In this document: piece after piece, positions 20,746 through 27,640 of the stretch
Layout: the number at the start of each line of letters is the position of its first letter
Position numbering within the stretch: the stretch's first letter is position 1
DNA from: an uncultured Roseovarius sp.
Lineage (GTDB): Bacteria > Pseudomonadota > Alphaproteobacteria > Rhodobacterales > Rhodobacteraceae
Reading direction: 5' to 3'
Length of the DNA stretch: 64,000 nucleotides
Assembly (NCBI GenBank): GCA_951812895.1
Contig: OX638333.1
Location: forward strand, 1,292,366-1,356,365
Notes under the pieces: generated by a model
Seen by the model: only the letters and a program-made list of their open reading frames with translations
Databases searched by the model: none
What the model was told of the DNA's origin: nothing
Made by a program: the position numbers and the translations under genes

Positions 20746-20883
20746 ACCGCTCGGGGGCTGCCAACGCTTTTCGGGATTTCTGAAGCTCCTTTTTAGGCGA
20801 AGAAAAAACAGCCGCTTAGCCCCCTCAAATTTCTTGCTCAAAGACCAGATTCCCCCCAATTGGGACGTGAAGGAGACCCCGCC

Positions 20884-22185
20884 ATGCCCATCACGCCCCT
20901 GAAATCCGCCCGCGGAGACGCCCCGCAATCCAGCGCCGATGTCGCGGATACGGTGCAAATCATGCTGAAACGGCTGAAAGAAGGTGGCGCTCAGGTCGCA
21001 CTCGAATACGCGCGACAACTGGATGGCTGGCAAGGCGAGATCACGGTCAGCTCGGATCAGATAGAGGCCGCAATCAGTACCGTTCCGCAAAGCATGCGGG
21101 ATGACATTCGTTGGGCGCATGACAATATCTCTCGTTTCGCCGCGGCACAGCGCGCCACCGCCCAGGATATGCAGATTGAACTCCGCCCCGGCCTGATTGC
21201 CGGACAAAAGCAAATCCCTGTATCGGCGGCAGGCTGTTATGTTCCGGGCGGGCGTTACACCCACATCGCCTCTGCCCTGATGTCCATCGCCACGGCACGA
21301 GAGGCCGGAGTGCAGGACATCACCGCTGTTTCCCCGCCTAACGGATCAGAGGGCATTCCCGCGCCAATGCTCTTTGCCATGCAATTGGCAGGCGCCACGC
21401 GTATTCTGACAATCGGCGGCGTGCAGGGTATTGCCGCGATGGCCTTTGGCATGTTTGGTGCACCCTCCGCGGATATCCTCGTAGGCCCCGGCAATGCCTA
21501 TGTGGCAGAGGCCAAGCGACAGCTTTTTGGCCCGGTTGGCATCGACATGTTTGCCGGTCCCACCGACAGCCTTGTTCTTGCTGATGACAGCGCCGATCCT
21601 GAAACCGTCGCCACGGACCTGATGAGCCAGGCCGAACACGGCCACACGTCACCTGTCTGGCTCGCCACCACAGATCGCACATTGGCTGACTTTGTCATGA
21701 CACGCGTCCCCGAAATGATCGCCACCCTGCCGGAACCAAACCAGGGTGCTGCCCGGGCAGCTTGGGACGATTTCGCAGAAGTCGTGTTGTGCGGCACGCG
21801 CGAAGACATGGCGCAATATGCCGACATGAAAGCCGCAGAACACCTGCATGTACAGACCCGAGACCTTGGCTGGTGGCGCGACCGCCTGCGCGCCTATGGC
21901 TCGCTCTTTCTGGGTGAAAACACCACCGTTTCCTTTGGCGACAAATCTGCAGGGCCCAACCATGTCCTGCCTACGTCTGGCGCCGCCCGTTACACAGGCG
22001 GCCTGTCGGTGCACAAGTTTCTCAAAACCGTCACCTGGCAAGAGGTTGATGAACGCGCCCTGCCCGACCTCGCCCGCGTCACCGCTGCAATCAGCCGCGA
22101 AGAACGGATGGAAGGGCATGCCCGTGCGGCTGATATCCGGCTGGATAAGCTGTCCACCCCCATTGGTGTCGCTGCCAACACCTGA
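20884..22185 (+). CDS. hpsN: Histidinol-dehydrogenase superfamily, HpsN-like sulfopropanediol dehydrogenase
   Basis: 433 aa, HisD fold. All catalytic and zinc residues are kept: Gln249 and His252 (SQAEHG), Glu319-His320, Asp353 and His412. It carries the GCYVPGGRYTHIASALMS version of the substrate region and NHVLPTxxAARYTGGLSVHKFLK, as in HpsN proteins, not the HisD version. HpsN oxidises (R)-2,3-dihydroxypropane-1-sulfonate to (R)-sulfolactate with NAD. The neighbouring cuyA supports a C3-sulfonate role. A true HisD would normally sit with his genes, none of which are present. AAGGAG precedes the ATG. Confidence 0.72.
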   Translation: MPITPLKSARGDAPQSSADVADTVQIMLKRLKEGGAQVALEYARQLDGWQGEITVSSDQIEAAISTVPQSMRDDIRWAHDNISRFAAAQRATAQDMQIELRPGLIAGQKQIPVSAAGCYVPGGRYTHIASALMSIATAREAGVQDITAVSPPNGSEGIPAPMLFAMQLAGATRILTIGGVQGIAAMAFGMFGAPSADILVGPGNAYVAEAKRQLFGPVGIDMFAGPTDSLVLADDSADPETVATDLMSQAEHGHTSPVWLATTDRTLADFVMTRVPEMIATLPEPNQGAARAAWDDFAEVVLCGTREDMAQYADMKAAEHLHVQTRDLGWWRDRLRAYGSLFLGENTTVSFGDKSAGPNHVLPTSGAARYTGGLSVHKFLKTVTWQEVDERALPDLARVTAAISREERMEGHARAADIRLDKLSTPIGVAANT

Positions 22186-22195
22186 CTCCGACAGG

Positions 22196-23116
22196 TTACC
22201 CCGGCGGCGGCCCCATACCATCCACGCTGATCGTCGATGCTTGTTCGCGCAACCGAATCCACGCCGCGTTCATAAATGCGCTACTATCAGTTCGGGTTCG
22301 AAGGATATTCACATTCAGCGTGGTCGCGGGCAGATACGGGCGTAAATCCTGTAATTCCCCCCGCGCCATCGCCTCATGAGCAACTGACTCCGGCAACCAT
22401 CCAATGCCGAGCCCCTGCCGGATGAATTGCAGAACTGCCGGCGTCAGCCCGGTTTCAGCAACCCGATGCGTCGCAAGATCTGATGGCAAATTGGGCAATA
22501 CCAAACGCCTCAATACCTCACCGAGGTAAATTGCCGGAGGGTACACAATCAGCGGCAGGTTCCCACGGTCGGATAACTTGCCGAAGTCTTCACGTGCCAC
22601 TGGTAAAAACGCATCAACGCCCAGCGCAACCTTCTCAAACAACCCGGGATCAAACTGAAACGAATCCTCAGCTGTCTCATAGATCAACGCAAAATCAATC
22701 TCTTGCCGCAGCAACATCAGATGGCATTCGCTTCGCGTGCCAGACCGAATTCGCATCTCCACCTCGCCATCCTGTACCAACGCCTGCGCCAGCCGCGGCG
22801 AAACCATGGTGGTCAATGCATGTTGGCAACCAAGGGTAAGACGGTTTGCGTTTTGCGCACCTCTCTCTGACAATCCAATGCGCAGCTCGCGAAACCGCCG
22901 CACGGCGTCGCGCAAATCCGGTTCTAACAGTTGCACATGCGGCAACAGTGTGACTGGCTTTCGACCCCGGTCAAATAAATCGGACCCAAGCGCCTCTTCC
23001 ATCACCCTGATCCGGCGGGTAAAGGCCGAAGGCGTCAAATATCGTCGCTCTGCCGCCGCAGAAAACGATCCGGTGTCCAGCACCGCCAGAATATCTTCAA
23101 GCCAGTCGAGCCTCAT
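22196..23116 (-). CDS. LysR-family regulator of the sulfonate locus
   Basis: 306 aa with an N-terminal winged helix-turn-helix (LEDILAVLDTGSFSAAAERRYLTPSAFTRRIRVMEE) and a periplasmic-binding-like effector domain. It is convergent with the HpsN-like gene (10 nt apart) and divergent from cuyA, with an LTTR-type box between. By position it probably activates cuyA and its racemase partner, with a sulfonate or amino-acid co-inducer; that is inference. Confidence 0.9.
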   Translation of the reverse strand: MRLDWLEDILAVLDTGSFSAAAERRYLTPSAFTRRIRVMEEALGSDLFDRGRKPVTLLPHVQLLEPDLRDAVRRFRELRIGLSERGAQNANRLTLGCQHALTTMVSPRLAQALVQDGEVEMRIRSGTRSECHLMLLRQEIDFALIYETAEDSFQFDPGLFEKVALGVDAFLPVAREDFGKLSDRGNLPLIVYPPAIYLGEVLRRLVLPNLPSDLATHRVAETGLTPAVLQFIRQGLGIGWLPESVAHEAMARGELQDLRPYLPATTLNVNILRTRTDSSAFMNAAWIRLREQASTISVDGMGPPPG

Positions 23117-23130
23117 CGCAGGACCATAAC

Positions 23131-23145
23131 TTGCAAAAATTGCAA
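23131..23145. promoter_or_regulatory. LysR-type operator between the regulator and cuyA
   Basis: TTGCA-N5-TGCAA (23131-23145) matches the T-N11-A inverted-repeat form of LysR binding sites and lies 15 nt before the regulator start and about 78 nt before cuyA. A further CGAATTTCG palindrome (23155-23163) could be the activation half-site. Confidence 0.55.
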
Positions 23146-23222
23146 TTTAAACCGCGAATTTCGAATTTGAAACCTATTCCAGCCTGTGGTTTCTTTCCGG
23201 AAACGACAATTTGGAGCCGATC

Positions 23223-24227
23223 ATGAACCTAGCCCAGTTTCCCCGAGTCAATCTCGCCCATCTGCCCACACCGCTAGAGCCGCTGCCGCGCCTATCCGCC
23301 TTTCTTGGCGGACCAGAGATCTGGATCAAGCGCGATGATTGCACCGGGCTTTCGACAGGCGGCAACAAAACCCGCAAACTGGAATTCCTGATGGCCGAGG
23401 CACAGGCGCAGGGCGCTGACATCGTGCTGACCCAAGGCGCGACCCAGTCGAACCATGCGCGCCAAACTGCTGCTGCTGCCGCACGCCTTGGAATGGATTG
23501 CCATATCCTGCTCGAGGATCGCACCGGCTATAACTACGACAACTACAAATACAACGGCAACGTCCTGCTTGATCACCTGCATGGTGCCACCATCGAACAC
23601 CGCGGTCCTGATCTCGATATGAACGCGGAAATGGAGGCGGTCGCCGATAAATTCCGTGCCGACGGTCGCAATGCCTATACCATCCCGGGTGGCGGCTCGA
23701 ACGCAACCGGCGCACTTGGCTATGTGAATTGTGCGCTTGAAATGCTGAACCAGTTCGTGACCACCGGTCTGAACGTTGATCACATCGTGCACGCAACCGG
23801 CTCTGCCGGAACCCAAGCTGGCCTGATCACTGGCCTGCGCGCCATGAATGCAAACATCCCGCTTCTGGGCATCGGGGTTCGAGCACCCAAGGCCAAGCAG
23901 GAAGAGAACGTATACAACCTCGCCGTCAAAACCGCCGAGAAACTCGGCTGTCCCGGCGTTGTTGCGCGCGAAGACGTTGTGGCCAACACCGATTACGTTG
24001 GCCCCGGTTACGGAGTTCCCGCCGAAGACACGCTCGAAGCCATCGACATCTTTGCCCGGTACGAGGCGATCCTGCTCGATCCGGTTTATTCTGCCAAAGG
24101 TGGCGCCGGTCTCATTGACCTGATCCGCAAGCGCCATTTCAAAGCAGGCGAAAAGGTTGTGTTCCTGCACACTGGTGGTGCGATCGGCCTCACCGGATAC
24201 AGCCACTGCTTTAACGTCGCCGGATGA
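23223..24227 (+). CDS. cuyA: L-cysteate sulfo-lyase (D-cysteine desulfhydrase family)
   Basis: 334 aa, fold-type II PLP enzyme. Lys49 in [11 protein letters not shown] binds PLP, and GATQSNHAR (72-80) is the substrate/phosphate loop. Close in sequence to CuyA of roseobacters, which splits L-cysteate to pyruvate, ammonium and sulfite; D-cysteine desulfhydrase and ACC deaminase are the alternative family members. The ATG at 23223 has GGAG 7 nt upstream. The stop overlaps the racemase-family gene as ATGA, so they are coupled. Confidence 0.82.
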
Positions 24228-24901
24228 AGCCGGTCGGCATTCTTGGGGGGATGGGGCCAGAGGCCACCATCCTCCTGATGCAAAAGGTGTTGGCCTGCGT
24301 ACAGGCGGGGGACGATGCTGATCATATCCCGCTCATCGTGCACCAGAACCCACAGGTTCCCTCGCGCATTGCCGCTCTGATCGACGGCACTGGTCCTGAT
24401 CCCGCGCCTGCCCTGCGCCGGATGGCGCTTGATCTGGAAGCAGCAGGCGCACAGGCCCTCGCCATGCCCTGCAACACGGCCCATCACTATGCCCAAGTCG
24501 TGGACAGCGCCAACAGCCTGCCCTTTCTAAACATGCTCGACCTGACGGCCCGGCATCTTGCCGCGAAAGGCGCAAAAAATATCGGAATGCTCGCCTCACC
24601 AGCCACCCGTCTGACCGGCGTTTTCAATGACGCCTTTACCGCAAACGGCCTTACCCCGGTCTGGCGCGATGGCAACGAATTGCTGTCCATTATCCGCGCG
24701 GTCAAAGCAGGGGCAGATTCCGCTTCTATCGCTCCACGCATCACAACCGAAGCACAGAGCCTGATCCGCTCCGGTGCGGACCACCTTTTAATCGCCTGCA
24801 CCGAACTATCGCTCTTCACCCACGCCCTGCCGAATGATGTGCGCTGGACCGACAGCCTCGACTGTCTCGTAACCGCTATCGCTGGGTTCGCACGGGGATA
24901 A
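24224..24901 (+). CDS. Aspartate/glutamate racemase-family protein (possible cysteate racemase)
   Basis: 225 aa, cofactor-independent racemase fold with both catalytic cysteines: Cys83 in MPCNTAH and Cys192 in IACTELS; N-terminus [11 protein letters not shown]. These two thiols interconvert D and L amino acids. Coupling to cuyA, which acts on L-cysteate, makes D-cysteate the attractive substrate, since cysteate is a close analogue of aspartate. The activity is inferred from context only. Confidence 0.85.
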
Positions 24902-24963: not shown

Positions 24964-26055
24964 TCAGGCATGCGTTCGCGATTTCTGCGGATCATAGAAC
25001 GGCAATGCCCGCACTTCGGCCGTGGTCTCAATTCCGTCACCTGACACCTGCAACTGCACACCGTCGGCCACACCGGGCGCCACATGCCCCAAGGCCAGCG
25101 ACAGGCCTAACCGGTGCGAAAAACAGGGGCTGTTGACCAAACCCACCTTCTTACCATCCAGCAACAGATCCTCGCCCCCGTTCACCATGTCATCGTGATC
25201 CACCACCAGGCCCACGTTGCGCAGGTTCTCTTTGCCCTCTGCAGCCATCAAGGCATCGCGGCCCCGAAAATTCTCTTTGCTCCGGCTCACTGTAAAGCCC
25301 AGGCCAACTTCCCACGGTGTGTGCTCGGCATTCATATCGTAGTCATAAAACAGCAACCCCGCTTCGATCCGCACCTTGTCGAGTGATGTGAACGAACACG
25401 GCATAACACCCGCCGCGGCCAGCTGATCCCAGATATCAACGACCACCGATTGATCTGCGAACACCTCATAGCCGCGCTCGCCCGAGTACCCGGTCCGTGA
25501 AATCCTGCATGGGCGGCCAAACAGAGTGGCTTCAGCATGATTAAAATAGGCCATCGAGGCCAAGTCTATCGAACAATTGACATTCAGGATATCCAGCGCC
25601 CCGGGTCCCTGCACCGAAATGTCATGAAAGTTATCGTTCAGCGTGATGTCTACATCCCGTCCCTCGGCTGAGGCCTGCAACATCGCCATTGTCTGGCCAG
25701 ACCCATGCACGATCATCCACTCATCGTCCCCATTGTTTGACACAATCGCATCATCGGCCAACGTCCCGCTTTCCGTCAGAACAGACAGATAGGCCGCCTG
25801 ACCAGGCGCCAACCGCGTCAGGTCGCGCGATGTCGCATGATCCAGCACCGCCATCGCATCAGGGCCCCGCACAAACACCTTTTTCAACGGCGACATGTCA
25901 AACATGCCGGCTCGCTCACGCACCGCGTCATGTTCATCATTGGGATCACTGTCATAGCTCCACGCCGTACCCATTCCGTTCCAGTCTTCCAGCCCCGACC
26001 CCAACGCGCGGTGCCGCTCTGCCAGTGCCGATGTCCGGCTTAGTTCTTCTGTCAT
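24964..26055 (-). CDS. GcvT-like aminomethyltransferase-family protein
   Basis: 363 aa with the GcvT/T-protein fold: TSRDLTRLAPGQAAYLSVLTESGT (folate-domain region), RTGYSGERGYEVF and the C-terminal barrel (GLVNSPCFSHRLGLSLALGHV). The family moves C1 units onto tetrahydrofolate. It is not the DMSP demethylase DmdA by eye. It follows the MttB-family gene by 22 nt, so the pair may form a two-component demethylase: MttB removes methyl from a quaternary amine and this protein transfers it to folate. GGGAGAA before 26055 supports this start; the upstream ATG at 26091 overlaps mttB. Confidence 0.82.
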   Translation of the reverse strand: MTEELSRTSALAERHRALGSGLEDWNGMGTAWSYDSDPNDEHDAVRERAGMFDMSPLKKVFVRGPDAMAVLDHATSRDLTRLAPGQAAYLSVLTESGTLADDAIVSNNGDDEWMIVHGSGQTMAMLQASAEGRDVDITLNDNFHDISVQGPGALDILNVNCSIDLASMAYFNHAEATLFGRPCRISRTGYSGERGYEVFADQSVVVDIWDQLAAAGVMPCSFTSLDKVRIEAGLLFYDYDMNAEHTPWEVGLGFTVSRSKENFRGRDALMAAEGKENLRNVGLVVDHDDMVNGGEDLLLDGKKVGLVNSPCFSHRLGLSLALGHVAPGVADGVQLQVSGDGIETTAEVRALPFYDPQKSRTHA

Positions 26056-26077
26056 GCAAATTTCTCCCTTGATCTCT

Positions 26078-27640
26078 TCAATACCATTCATCTTCCATTC
26101 CGGACTTCCGGCGCTCTACAAATGCCATCAATTCGGAATATGTATCGGTGCTCATCTCCGGCGGCTCGTATCGGGCCAGCATGTCTTTCCACCGGCCAGT
26201 CGCCCGCTCTGCCGCGCTCAGGCTGCCTTGCTCAACCCAGGTTTCAAAAGGACCGGGTTCGGGAATGTCCGAAATGTAATTGGCAGTCGCGTAGTGACGC
26301 ATCGTATGCCCGGTAGAGAGGAAATTTTGTCCCGGCCCGGCCTCTGCATAAGCATCCCGCGCCAGCGCCTCGTCATCCACATCCATCCCGCCCAGCATCT
26401 TGAGCAACATGCCGCAGTGATCAACATCCATCACGAATTTCTCATAAGACATGGTCAGCCCGCCTTCCAGCCAACCCGCCGCATGCCAGACCTGATGCGT
26501 GCCCGACATCAATGTGGCCCACATAGCAGCAGCACTATCCTGCATCGCCTGTCCGTCGGGCGCATTGGATGCAGTGACCTGACCACCACCGGAACGCACC
26601 GGAATGCCCAACCGCCGCACCAGCTGCGCCAGCGCAAATGTCACCAGATTGGCCTCGGGCGAGCCAAAGGTCAGCGCACCGGATTTAAGGCTCATGGTCG
26701 AATGGAATGAGCCAAGGATACAGGGGCACCCGGGCCTCACCAACTGGGCAAGGGCAACGCCCACCATACCCTCGGCCAATGTCTGAGCAGCCATTGCAGC
26801 CGGGCTAAGCGGCCCCATTGCCCCGCCAAATATCGCAGGCGAAACCGCCACGCACTGCCCCTCTGCCGCATAGATCCGCAAGGCACCCGACATCACATTA
26901 TCAAAGACCAACGGCGAATTGACGTTGATGTTCCCCTGCATGACCGCATGCTTCGCCATGAGGTCAGTGCCGAACACAATCCGCGCCATATCAATCGAAT
27001 CCTGTGCACGTTCCGGCGAAGTAACCCCGCCCATGAACGGCTTGCTCGACAACGTCAGATGCGCCAGCACCATGTCCAGATGTCGTTTGTTAACCGCAAC
27101 ATCGCAGGGTTCGCAGACAGTTCCACCCGAATGGTGCAACCAAGGCGACAAATAGGCCAGCTTCACGAAATTCTGAAAATCCTCCAACGTTCCATAGCGC
27201 CGCCCGTTTTGCAGGTCAGTCACAAAAGGCGACCCATAGCCTGGCATCAGCACCAGATGATCACCTCCCAAAGTCACGGTGTGCTCTGGCACCCGTGAAT
27301 GCAGCTGAAACTCAGCCGGTGCCGTTGCGCAAAGCGCGCGCACATGCCCGGGTTCAAACCTGACCCGTTCACCATCCACCCGAGCGCCGGCTTTGGCGAA
27401 GAACGACAGCGCCTCGGCATCTCCGCGAAACTCTACGCCGACCTTGTCGAGTATCCAATCAGCCTGTTGTTCAATCCGTGTGAGCGCGACCTCATCCAAC
27501 AGGCTATAGGCTGGAATGCGTCGTACAAACGGTCCTGCCTGAGGCGCAGGAGCGGCTTGGCCTCTGCGTACCCGGCGCGGCCGTCCAAGGGCCGGCCTTG
27601 AGGCGCGATCACGGGTTATGCGATGACTGTTGGCGTTCAA
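26078..27640 (-). CDS. MttB-family (trimethylamine/glycine-betaine-type) methyltransferase, non-pyrrolysine
   Basis: 520 aa covering the full MttB TIM-barrel family, with no in-frame TAG, so pyrrolysine is not used. That places it with MtgB-like enzymes acting on quaternary amines instead of trimethylamine. Recognisable segments are MPGYGSPFVTDLQNGRRYG, GGTVCEPCDVAVNKRHL, FGGAMGPLSPAA and GIPVRSGGGQVTASNAPDGQA. A basic N-terminal tail of about 35 residues precedes the core. First gene of a two-gene unit with the GcvT-like gene; no corrinoid protein (MttC-like) is in the window. Divergent from a LysR regulator. Confidence 0.88.
   Translation of the reverse strand: MNANSHRITRDRASRPALGRPRRVRRGQAAPAPQAGPFVRRIPAYSLLDEVALTRIEQQADWILDKVGVEFRGDAEALSFFAKAGARVDGERVRFEPGHVRALCATAPAEFQLHSRVPEHTVTLGGDHLVLMPGYGSPFVTDLQNGRRYGTLEDFQNFVKLAYLSPWLHHSGGTVCEPCDVAVNKRHLDMVLAHLTLSSKPFMGGVTSPERAQDSIDMARIVFGTDLMAKHAVMQGNINVNSPLVFDNVMSGALRIYAAEGQCVAVSPAIFGGAMGPLSPAAMAAQTLAEGMVGVALAQLVRPGCPCILGSFHSTMSLKSGALTFGSPEANLVTFALAQLVRRLGIPVRSGGGQVTASNAPDGQAMQDSAAAMWATLMSGTHQVWHAAGWLEGGLTMSYEKFVMDVDHCGMLLKMLGGMDVDDEALARDAYAEAGPGQNFLSTGHTMRHYATANYISDIPEPGPFETWVEQGSLSAAERATGRWKDMLARYEPPEMSTDTYSELMAFVERRKSGMEDEWY

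Follow-up and report, generated by a model that had tools for sequence, protein, structure and literature searches.

Two described systems stand closest to the locus reported here. In cysteate dissimilation by the racemase CuyB and the sulfo-lyase CuyA (NF052483 and NF052482; Liu et al., 2024, J Biol Chem 300:107371), L-cysteate is converted to D-cysteate and the latter to pyruvate, ammonia and sulfite; CuyB interconverts the two enantiomers and CuyA prefers the D form (PMC11382572, citing Denger et al., 2009 and Liu et al., 2024). The second system centres on HpsN, the (R)-2,3-dihydroxypropane-1-sulfonate (DHPS) 3-dehydrogenase of Cupriavidus pinatubonensis (PDB 8v35; also 8wwe), whose family also includes histidinol dehydrogenase (HisD). 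We analysed a window of 64,000 nucleotides from an uncultured Roseovarius sp. (contig OX638333.1, a single-contig genome of 4.54 Mb), in which both window enzymes of the CuyA-CuyB system are encoded side by side and, as a difference from that system, are accompanied by a HisD-fold, HpsN-like dehydrogenase, P0001 (positions 20884-22185, + strand; 433 aa; PF00815, 417.8 bits). An initial annotation had named four genes here, the dehydrogenase, a LysR regulator, cuyA and a racemase; open reading frames (ORFs) and Pfam families confirm all of them at their positions, each Pfam match lying above the gathering score.

To place P0001 among its relatives, 198 genomes of the window's family were searched for P0001, CuyA, CuyB, HpsO and HpsP, with neighbours defined as matches within 6 kb; neighbourhoods based on tblastn with reference proteins replaced those based on longest ORFs, which were too noisy. 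HpsN-family genes were taken as those with at least 52% identity to P0001 (n = 113, leaving out a group at 42-45% and unlisted weaker matches), and the rows kept were 46 of 51 for CuyB and 67 of 68 for CuyA, these being the ones above cut-off, together with 56 of 56 for HpsO and 68 of 69 for HpsP. The family splits clearly by gene context: 24 genes lie near CuyA or CuyB, 61 near HpsO or HpsP, none near both and 28 near neither (Fisher p = 2e-10, ignoring kinship). A cut copy beside CuyA and CuyB in genome G036, which carries HpsP elsewhere, was seen at locus L222 and is not among the 113. The two contexts are separate throughout, and among the 33 genes at least 62% identical to P0001 the counts are 19 near Cuy genes, 0 near HpsO/P, 0 near both and 14 near neither.

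A tree of 151 proteins plus HisD (IQ-TREE quick search, with SH-aLRT support and no bootstrap) gave a similar picture. Its rows comprise 53 Cuy-linked, 70 Hps-linked and 28 unlinked proteins, with none linked to both, and the Cuy/Hps label changes three times over the whole tree. The window protein falls outside the clade of hps-operon HpsN, in a clade of 57 rows (SH-aLRT 92) made up of 40 Cuy-linked and 17 unlinked proteins and no Hps-linked one. In this tree the Hps label was also given by ComDE, SlcD or TrapM; five fragments (L036, the second pieces of L038 and L218, L222 and L160, of which L222 and L160 have Cuy contexts) and four identical rows were left out. Plasmid loci L130-L135, L158 and L159 had been chosen for co-occurrence of CuyA and the dehydrogenase, so that the unbiased count is that of the 198-genome survey. 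Some of the rows near neither have short flanks (e.g. L009, L032, L217), and L008, L011 and L012 have CuyA elsewhere in the genome.

The same genome holds a second HpsN. Three HisD-fold matches were found in it, P0001, a copy 57% identical to P0001 at C1:1365701-1366942 and HisD (35%), and the second of these lies about 9 kb past the right end of the window (L039:9297-10604, minus strand). It stands in an operon with LacI, TrapP, TrapM, HpsO, HpsP, Usp, ComD, ComE and SlcD, i.e. with every DHPS reference gene searched for, which runs from SlcD at 1361280 to about 1371500 of G000:C1, some 5-15 kb past the window end (the position of LacI being inferred from the ORF list). Since this other copy occupies a full DHPS operon and is the one adjoined by hpsO and hpsP, P0001 is not the genome's evident DHPS dehydrogenase; as opposed to that copy, P0001 has cuyA and cuyB as its neighbours. 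The initial annotation had taken the window protein for the DHPS enzyme HpsN, and while family and residues bear out the likeness, the neighbourhood survey makes a role in DHPS oxidation less likely.

At the level of sequence the likeness to HpsN is close. The best PDB matches of the window dehydrogenase are 8wwe, '(R)-DHPS dehydrogenase' (E 6.9e-153), and 8v35, 'Sulfopropanediol 3-dehydrogenase' (E 6.1e-146), with 53% identity to HpsN of C. pinatubonensis strain HN-2, whereas its closest relatives in named genomes, from Roseovarius and metagenome-assembled Rhodobacteraceae and Alphaproteobacteria, reach 75-83%. Measured against the C. pinatubonensis residue set (PMC11382572), the fold family, zinc ligands, catalytic Glu and His and the sulfonate-binding His126 and Lys353 are shared: H126, Q248, H251, E318, H319, D352, K353, H359 and H411, which serve zinc binding, sulfonate binding and catalysis, are all kept. 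The HisD-type catalytic residues noted initially are present, and with them the HpsN-specific His126. The window protein differs in having Thr for Ser226 (Thr in 148 of 151 rows), Tyr for Phe205 at the NAD site and GRYTH for the published GRY[AS]H, a change at position 125 that keeps the His. The genome's own HisD, by comparison, is a separate gene with Tyr in place of His126.

Active-site residues were considered as a test of substrate and rejected, the substrate and zinc positions being the same in both groups. The columns that do differ between the groups include 321, 336, 142 and the NAD-site positions 45 and 205, none of them a known substrate contact; Tyr205 occurs in 37 of 53 Cuy-linked rows and Phe205 in 67 of 70 Hps-linked rows, and position 321, Glu in C. 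pinatubonensis HpsN, is Thr in 62 of the 70.

Cuy-linked copies occur in 24 genomes, 21 of which gave no HpsO or HpsP match at an E-value of 1e-80 (the exceptions being G000, G155 and G207), the HpsO result resting on the 13 of up to 100 first-look candidates scored per genome. SlcD at 60% identity or more was found in one of these 21 (G119), followed by G047 at 49% and the remainder at no more than 44% or without a match; SuyB at that level was found in none of the 21 (best 35%), against 66-68% in 4 of 10 genomes used for comparison. For the ComC family PF02615, 11 of the 21 gave no match at E 1e-20. Five of the 21 genomes are less than 90% complete (G035, G047, G092, G110, G180). With HpsO/P, SuyB and, but for one, SlcD orthologues not found, most of these genomes would have no recognised route for disposing of sulfolactate, which argues that the product of the Cuy-linked dehydrogenase is not sulfolactate.

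These results raised the possibility that the substrate is cysteinolate (2-amino-3-hydroxypropanesulfonate). HpsN converts a C3 alcohol to the acid while the neighbouring C2 substituent is bound to zinc, and HisD performs the same type of chemistry on an amino alcohol, so that an HpsN paralogue accepting cysteinolate would give cysteate directly. We propose that the locus breaks down cysteate and also encodes the enzyme that supplies it: the Cuy-linked dehydrogenase would oxidise cysteinolate to cysteate, which would then pass to CuyB and CuyA; judged from gene context and family membership, this assignment seems to us evenly poised between right and wrong. As a paralogue of the DHPS dehydrogenase, P0001 would carry out an NAD-dependent, zinc-centred four-electron oxidation, reaching cysteate in one step, with neither a sulfolactate dehydrogenase nor a transaminase. 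If the stereochemistry of HpsN is retained, the product would be L-cysteate, which is the R form, and the racemase would then be needed before the D-specific CuyA completes the breakdown. Ten of the 53 Cuy-linked tree rows have the dehydrogenase next to CuyB with no CuyA nearby, an arrangement that would fit L-cysteate having to meet CuyB first; in all 7 genomes searched among these (G024 included), CuyA is present elsewhere, one of the seven having an internal stop. L-cysteate was also the ligand with which the C. pinatubonensis enzyme was crystallised, as a mimic of its product in place of R-sulfolactate (PMC11382572). More broadly, we consider it an even call whether the HisD/HpsN family holds a distinct branch of cysteinolate dehydrogenases that are operon partners of CuyA and CuyB, with three genes leading from cysteinolic acid to pyruvate, ammonium and sulfite.

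Several observations weigh against the assignment. Zinc and substrate residues are identical in Cuy- and Hps-linked proteins save in one aberrant row, and for this reason sequence alone cannot tell which substrate is used. The Cuy-linked proteins form a grade rather than a single clade, and the window clade is held together by its SH-aLRT value of 92, with no bootstrap. One of the 14 genes at 62% identity or more with neither neighbour (G188:C35) is adjoined by ComD and ComE and is placed within the hps clade. Of the 33 genes at this level, 10, e.g. that of G067, are in genomes with no CuyA above cut-off, where cysteate would need another outlet. Conversely, 23 of the 46 CuyB genes (22 when the cut copy in G036 is counted) lack an HpsN-family neighbour, which makes the dehydrogenase an optional partner of CuyB. 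The stereochemistry could also run the other way: natural cysteinolic acid is termed D in an older title cited in the reference list of PMC8703288, and D-cysteinolate would give D-cysteate, for which CuyB is unnecessary. Finally, SlcD homologues of 32-49% identity occur in 16 of the 21 genomes, SlcC or unrecognised sulfolactate dehydrogenases may provide an outlet for sulfolactate, and the absence of HpsO depends on the limited scoring given above.

The alternative that survives best, which we nevertheless consider unlikely, is that P0001 is a second R-DHPS dehydrogenase, whose product R-sulfolactate would be turned into sulfopyruvate by oxidation and then, by transamination, into the L-cysteate used by CuyB and CuyA. 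The 57% identity to HpsN and the shared zinc, sulfonate and catalytic residues are as expected for such an enzyme; a CuyA branch of DHPS degradation has been described, with CuyA among HpsN neighbours (PMC11382572), the genome's own hps operon contains SlcD as well as HpsO/P, and 15 of 53 Cuy-linked tree rows have an aminotransferase close by (5 of 24 when the genome survey alone is counted). Against it stand the total separation of Cuy and HpsO/P neighbours among the 113 genes and the lack of HpsO/P, SlcD and SuyB matches in most Cuy-linked genomes; in addition, the only operon aminotransferase scanned with Pfam (L131:4287-5495) is of the DegT/DnrJ/EryC1 family (PF01041). The DegT family is best known for keto-sugars. 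This protein and its counterpart at L130:6093-7298 match sugar-aminotransferase NCBIfam models below cut-off, and 13 further Cuy-linked loci with that aminotransferase were found by similarity; the enzyme could act between cysteinolate and its ketone instead of between sulfopyruvate and cysteate.

Improbable to a greater degree, in our estimation, is an enzyme acting on some other C3 aminosulfonate alcohol or aldehyde, such as cysteinolate carrying an N-methyl or N-acyl group, so that cysteate would arise further along the pathway. In its favour, 4 of 53 Cuy-linked tree rows have an alpha/beta hydrolase close by, and demethylation-type genes (MttB, dimethylglycine dehydrogenase-like, Rieske, ferredoxin reductase) lie near 8 of 53 Cuy-linked, 2 of 70 Hps-linked and 2 of 28 unlinked rows in a post hoc count; N-methylated aminosulfonates might feed the pathway. 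Both kinds of neighbour are few, however, the MttB matches outside the window are only 25-39% identical, and the window's own MttB/GcvT pair is on the opposite strand.

The assignment of the two Cuy enzymes follows from curated models. CuyA (23223-24227, + strand; 334 aa; PF00291, a pyridoxal phosphate enzyme) passes the 'D-cysteate sulfo-lyase' model NF052482 with 545.8 bits against a cut-off of 450 and is 81% identical to CuyA of R. pomeroyi. CuyB (24224-24901, + strand; 225 aa; PF01177) passes the 'cysteate racemase' model NF052483 with 266.4 bits against 190 and is the genome's only match above that cut-off; the two genes overlap by 4 bases (ATGA). On the strength of family membership, and with the chemistry taken from the literature, CuyB is predicted to racemise cysteate and CuyA to cleave D-cysteate to pyruvate, ammonium and sulfite. 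The initial annotation had suggested that a racemase acting on cysteate works together with CuyA, and the kind of enzyme stands; the direction, given as D to L, does not, as D-cysteate is CuyA's preferred substrate, and the role of CuyB had already been published (both PMC11382572). The two catalytic cysteines attributed to the racemase (in PCNTAHH and AC[TS]E) occur in each of the 6 aligned CuyB sequences, the window's included, and the pairing with cuyA recurs, 39 of the 46 CuyB matches above cut-off in the 198 genomes lying within 6 kb of a CuyA. The refuting condition set in the initial annotation, that cuyA homologues are nowhere else found with this gene, thereby does not hold. That the racemase is a general Asp/Glu racemase beside cuyA by chance is most improbable, since despite its PF01177 domain, its match to the broad subfamily model TIGR00035 and the aspartate racemases that are its nearest solved relatives by sequence, it fails the Asp/Glu racemase equivalog (46.6 vs 417 bits), passes that of CuyB and belongs to a family that keeps company with CuyA in those 39 cases. 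The genome has another member of the CuyA/D-cysteine desulfhydrase family, with 42% identity to CuyA, at G000:C1:2121596-2122570 (L007/L040).

If the proposed reaction is correct, it would bear on the fate of cysteinolic acid. This compound is reported as a widely distributed solute in marine microalgae (PMC8703288) and as the head group of a roseobacter lipid (PMC11631085). The open literature searched, as far as its text was available, yielded no bacterial enzyme that initiates cysteinolic acid breakdown, a gap that the Cuy-linked branch would fill; Liu et al. (2024) and the 2022 review by Burchill and Williams, which lay outside that search, may already propose the step. Beyond the CuyB racemase, which was known, the contribution of this analysis would thus be the context split of the HpsN family and a testable candidate substrate for its Cuy-linked branch. 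Genes of that branch are now annotated as histidinol dehydrogenases or would pass for DHPS dehydrogenases, and, if the branch does act on cysteinolate, tallies that treat all HpsN homologues as DHPS degraders would have to be divided (here 24 of 113 in Cuy context and 61 of 113 in HpsO/P context).

The regulator between the dehydrogenase and cuyA (P0002; 22196-23116, - strand; 306 aa; PF00126 and PF03466) is 42% identical to the LysR protein encoded divergently from cuyA in R. pomeroyi and is probably the regulator of cuyAB. The gap between lysR and cuyA holds a probable LysR operator (23131-23169), with TTGCA-n4-TTGCA at 23131-23144 followed by ATTTCGAATTTG at 23158-23169, and it is probably through the TTGCA-n4-TTGCA box that LysR would turn on cuyAB. 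The core TGC-n6-TGCA, a motif picked after the alignment had been viewed, occurs in 25 of 28 distinct lysR-cuyA gaps, compared with a mean of 0.17 of 28 in 500 letter shuffles; alone, this short pattern has 13 further matches within the window. No TTGCA box was found upstream of the dehydrogenase, at 20746-20883; the ATG of this gene has AAGGAGACC ahead of it. As the dehydrogenase gene (+) and lysR (-) are convergent, the dehydrogenase and cuyAB share no common transcript start, and with lysR separating it from cuyA the dehydrogenase must have its own promoter. In the close relatives L014, L016, L019 and L022, the dehydrogenase, cuyA and cuyB are contiguous on one strand.

Plasmids carry fuller operons, the annotated regions having been chosen because CuyA and the dehydrogenase co-occur and the gene table being incomplete. 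Six plasmids, one each of Ensifer, Mesorhizobium, Ancylobacter and Leisingera and two of Paracoccus, all have cuyA, the aminotransferase, cuyB and the dehydrogenase; in 4 of the 6, TauABC genes separate cuyB from the dehydrogenase, and 3 of the 6 include a gene annotated as a member of the sulfate/sulfite exporter family. In Ruegeria sp. SCSIO 43209 the arrangement is cuyA-cuyB-dehydrogenase with no aminotransferase, and the Pseudomonas and Polaromonas plasmids show a different gene order, with TRAP genes in Pseudomonas and both cuyA and the dehydrogenase matched in two pieces in Polaromonas. Within that incomplete table, none of the 8 plasmid regions has an annotated alpha-hydroxy-acid oxidase or malate/lactate/sulfolactate dehydrogenase. 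TrapM lies near 35 of 70 Hps-linked and 0 of 53 Cuy-linked rows, and TauA near 0 of 70 and 8 of 53, respectively; transporter type was set aside as an argument, because most TauA loci are plasmids selected for co-occurrence (the genome survey gives 1 of 24) and because both R. pomeroyi and the Pseudomonas operon have TRAP genes annotated next to cuyA.

Two minor observations concern the surroundings of these genes. P0001-like genes with no CuyA or CuyB nearby were seen at L090-L095, L107-L109, L116 and L117, 8 of the 11 genomes having no CuyA above cut-off; the genes adjoining such unlinked copies offered no substrate clue among the 5 scanned, all five being LysR regulators (4 divergent, 1 on the same strand). 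In the window itself, GcvT-like and trimethylamine methyltransferase family (MttB) genes lie immediately past cuyB, at 24964-27640 on the - strand.

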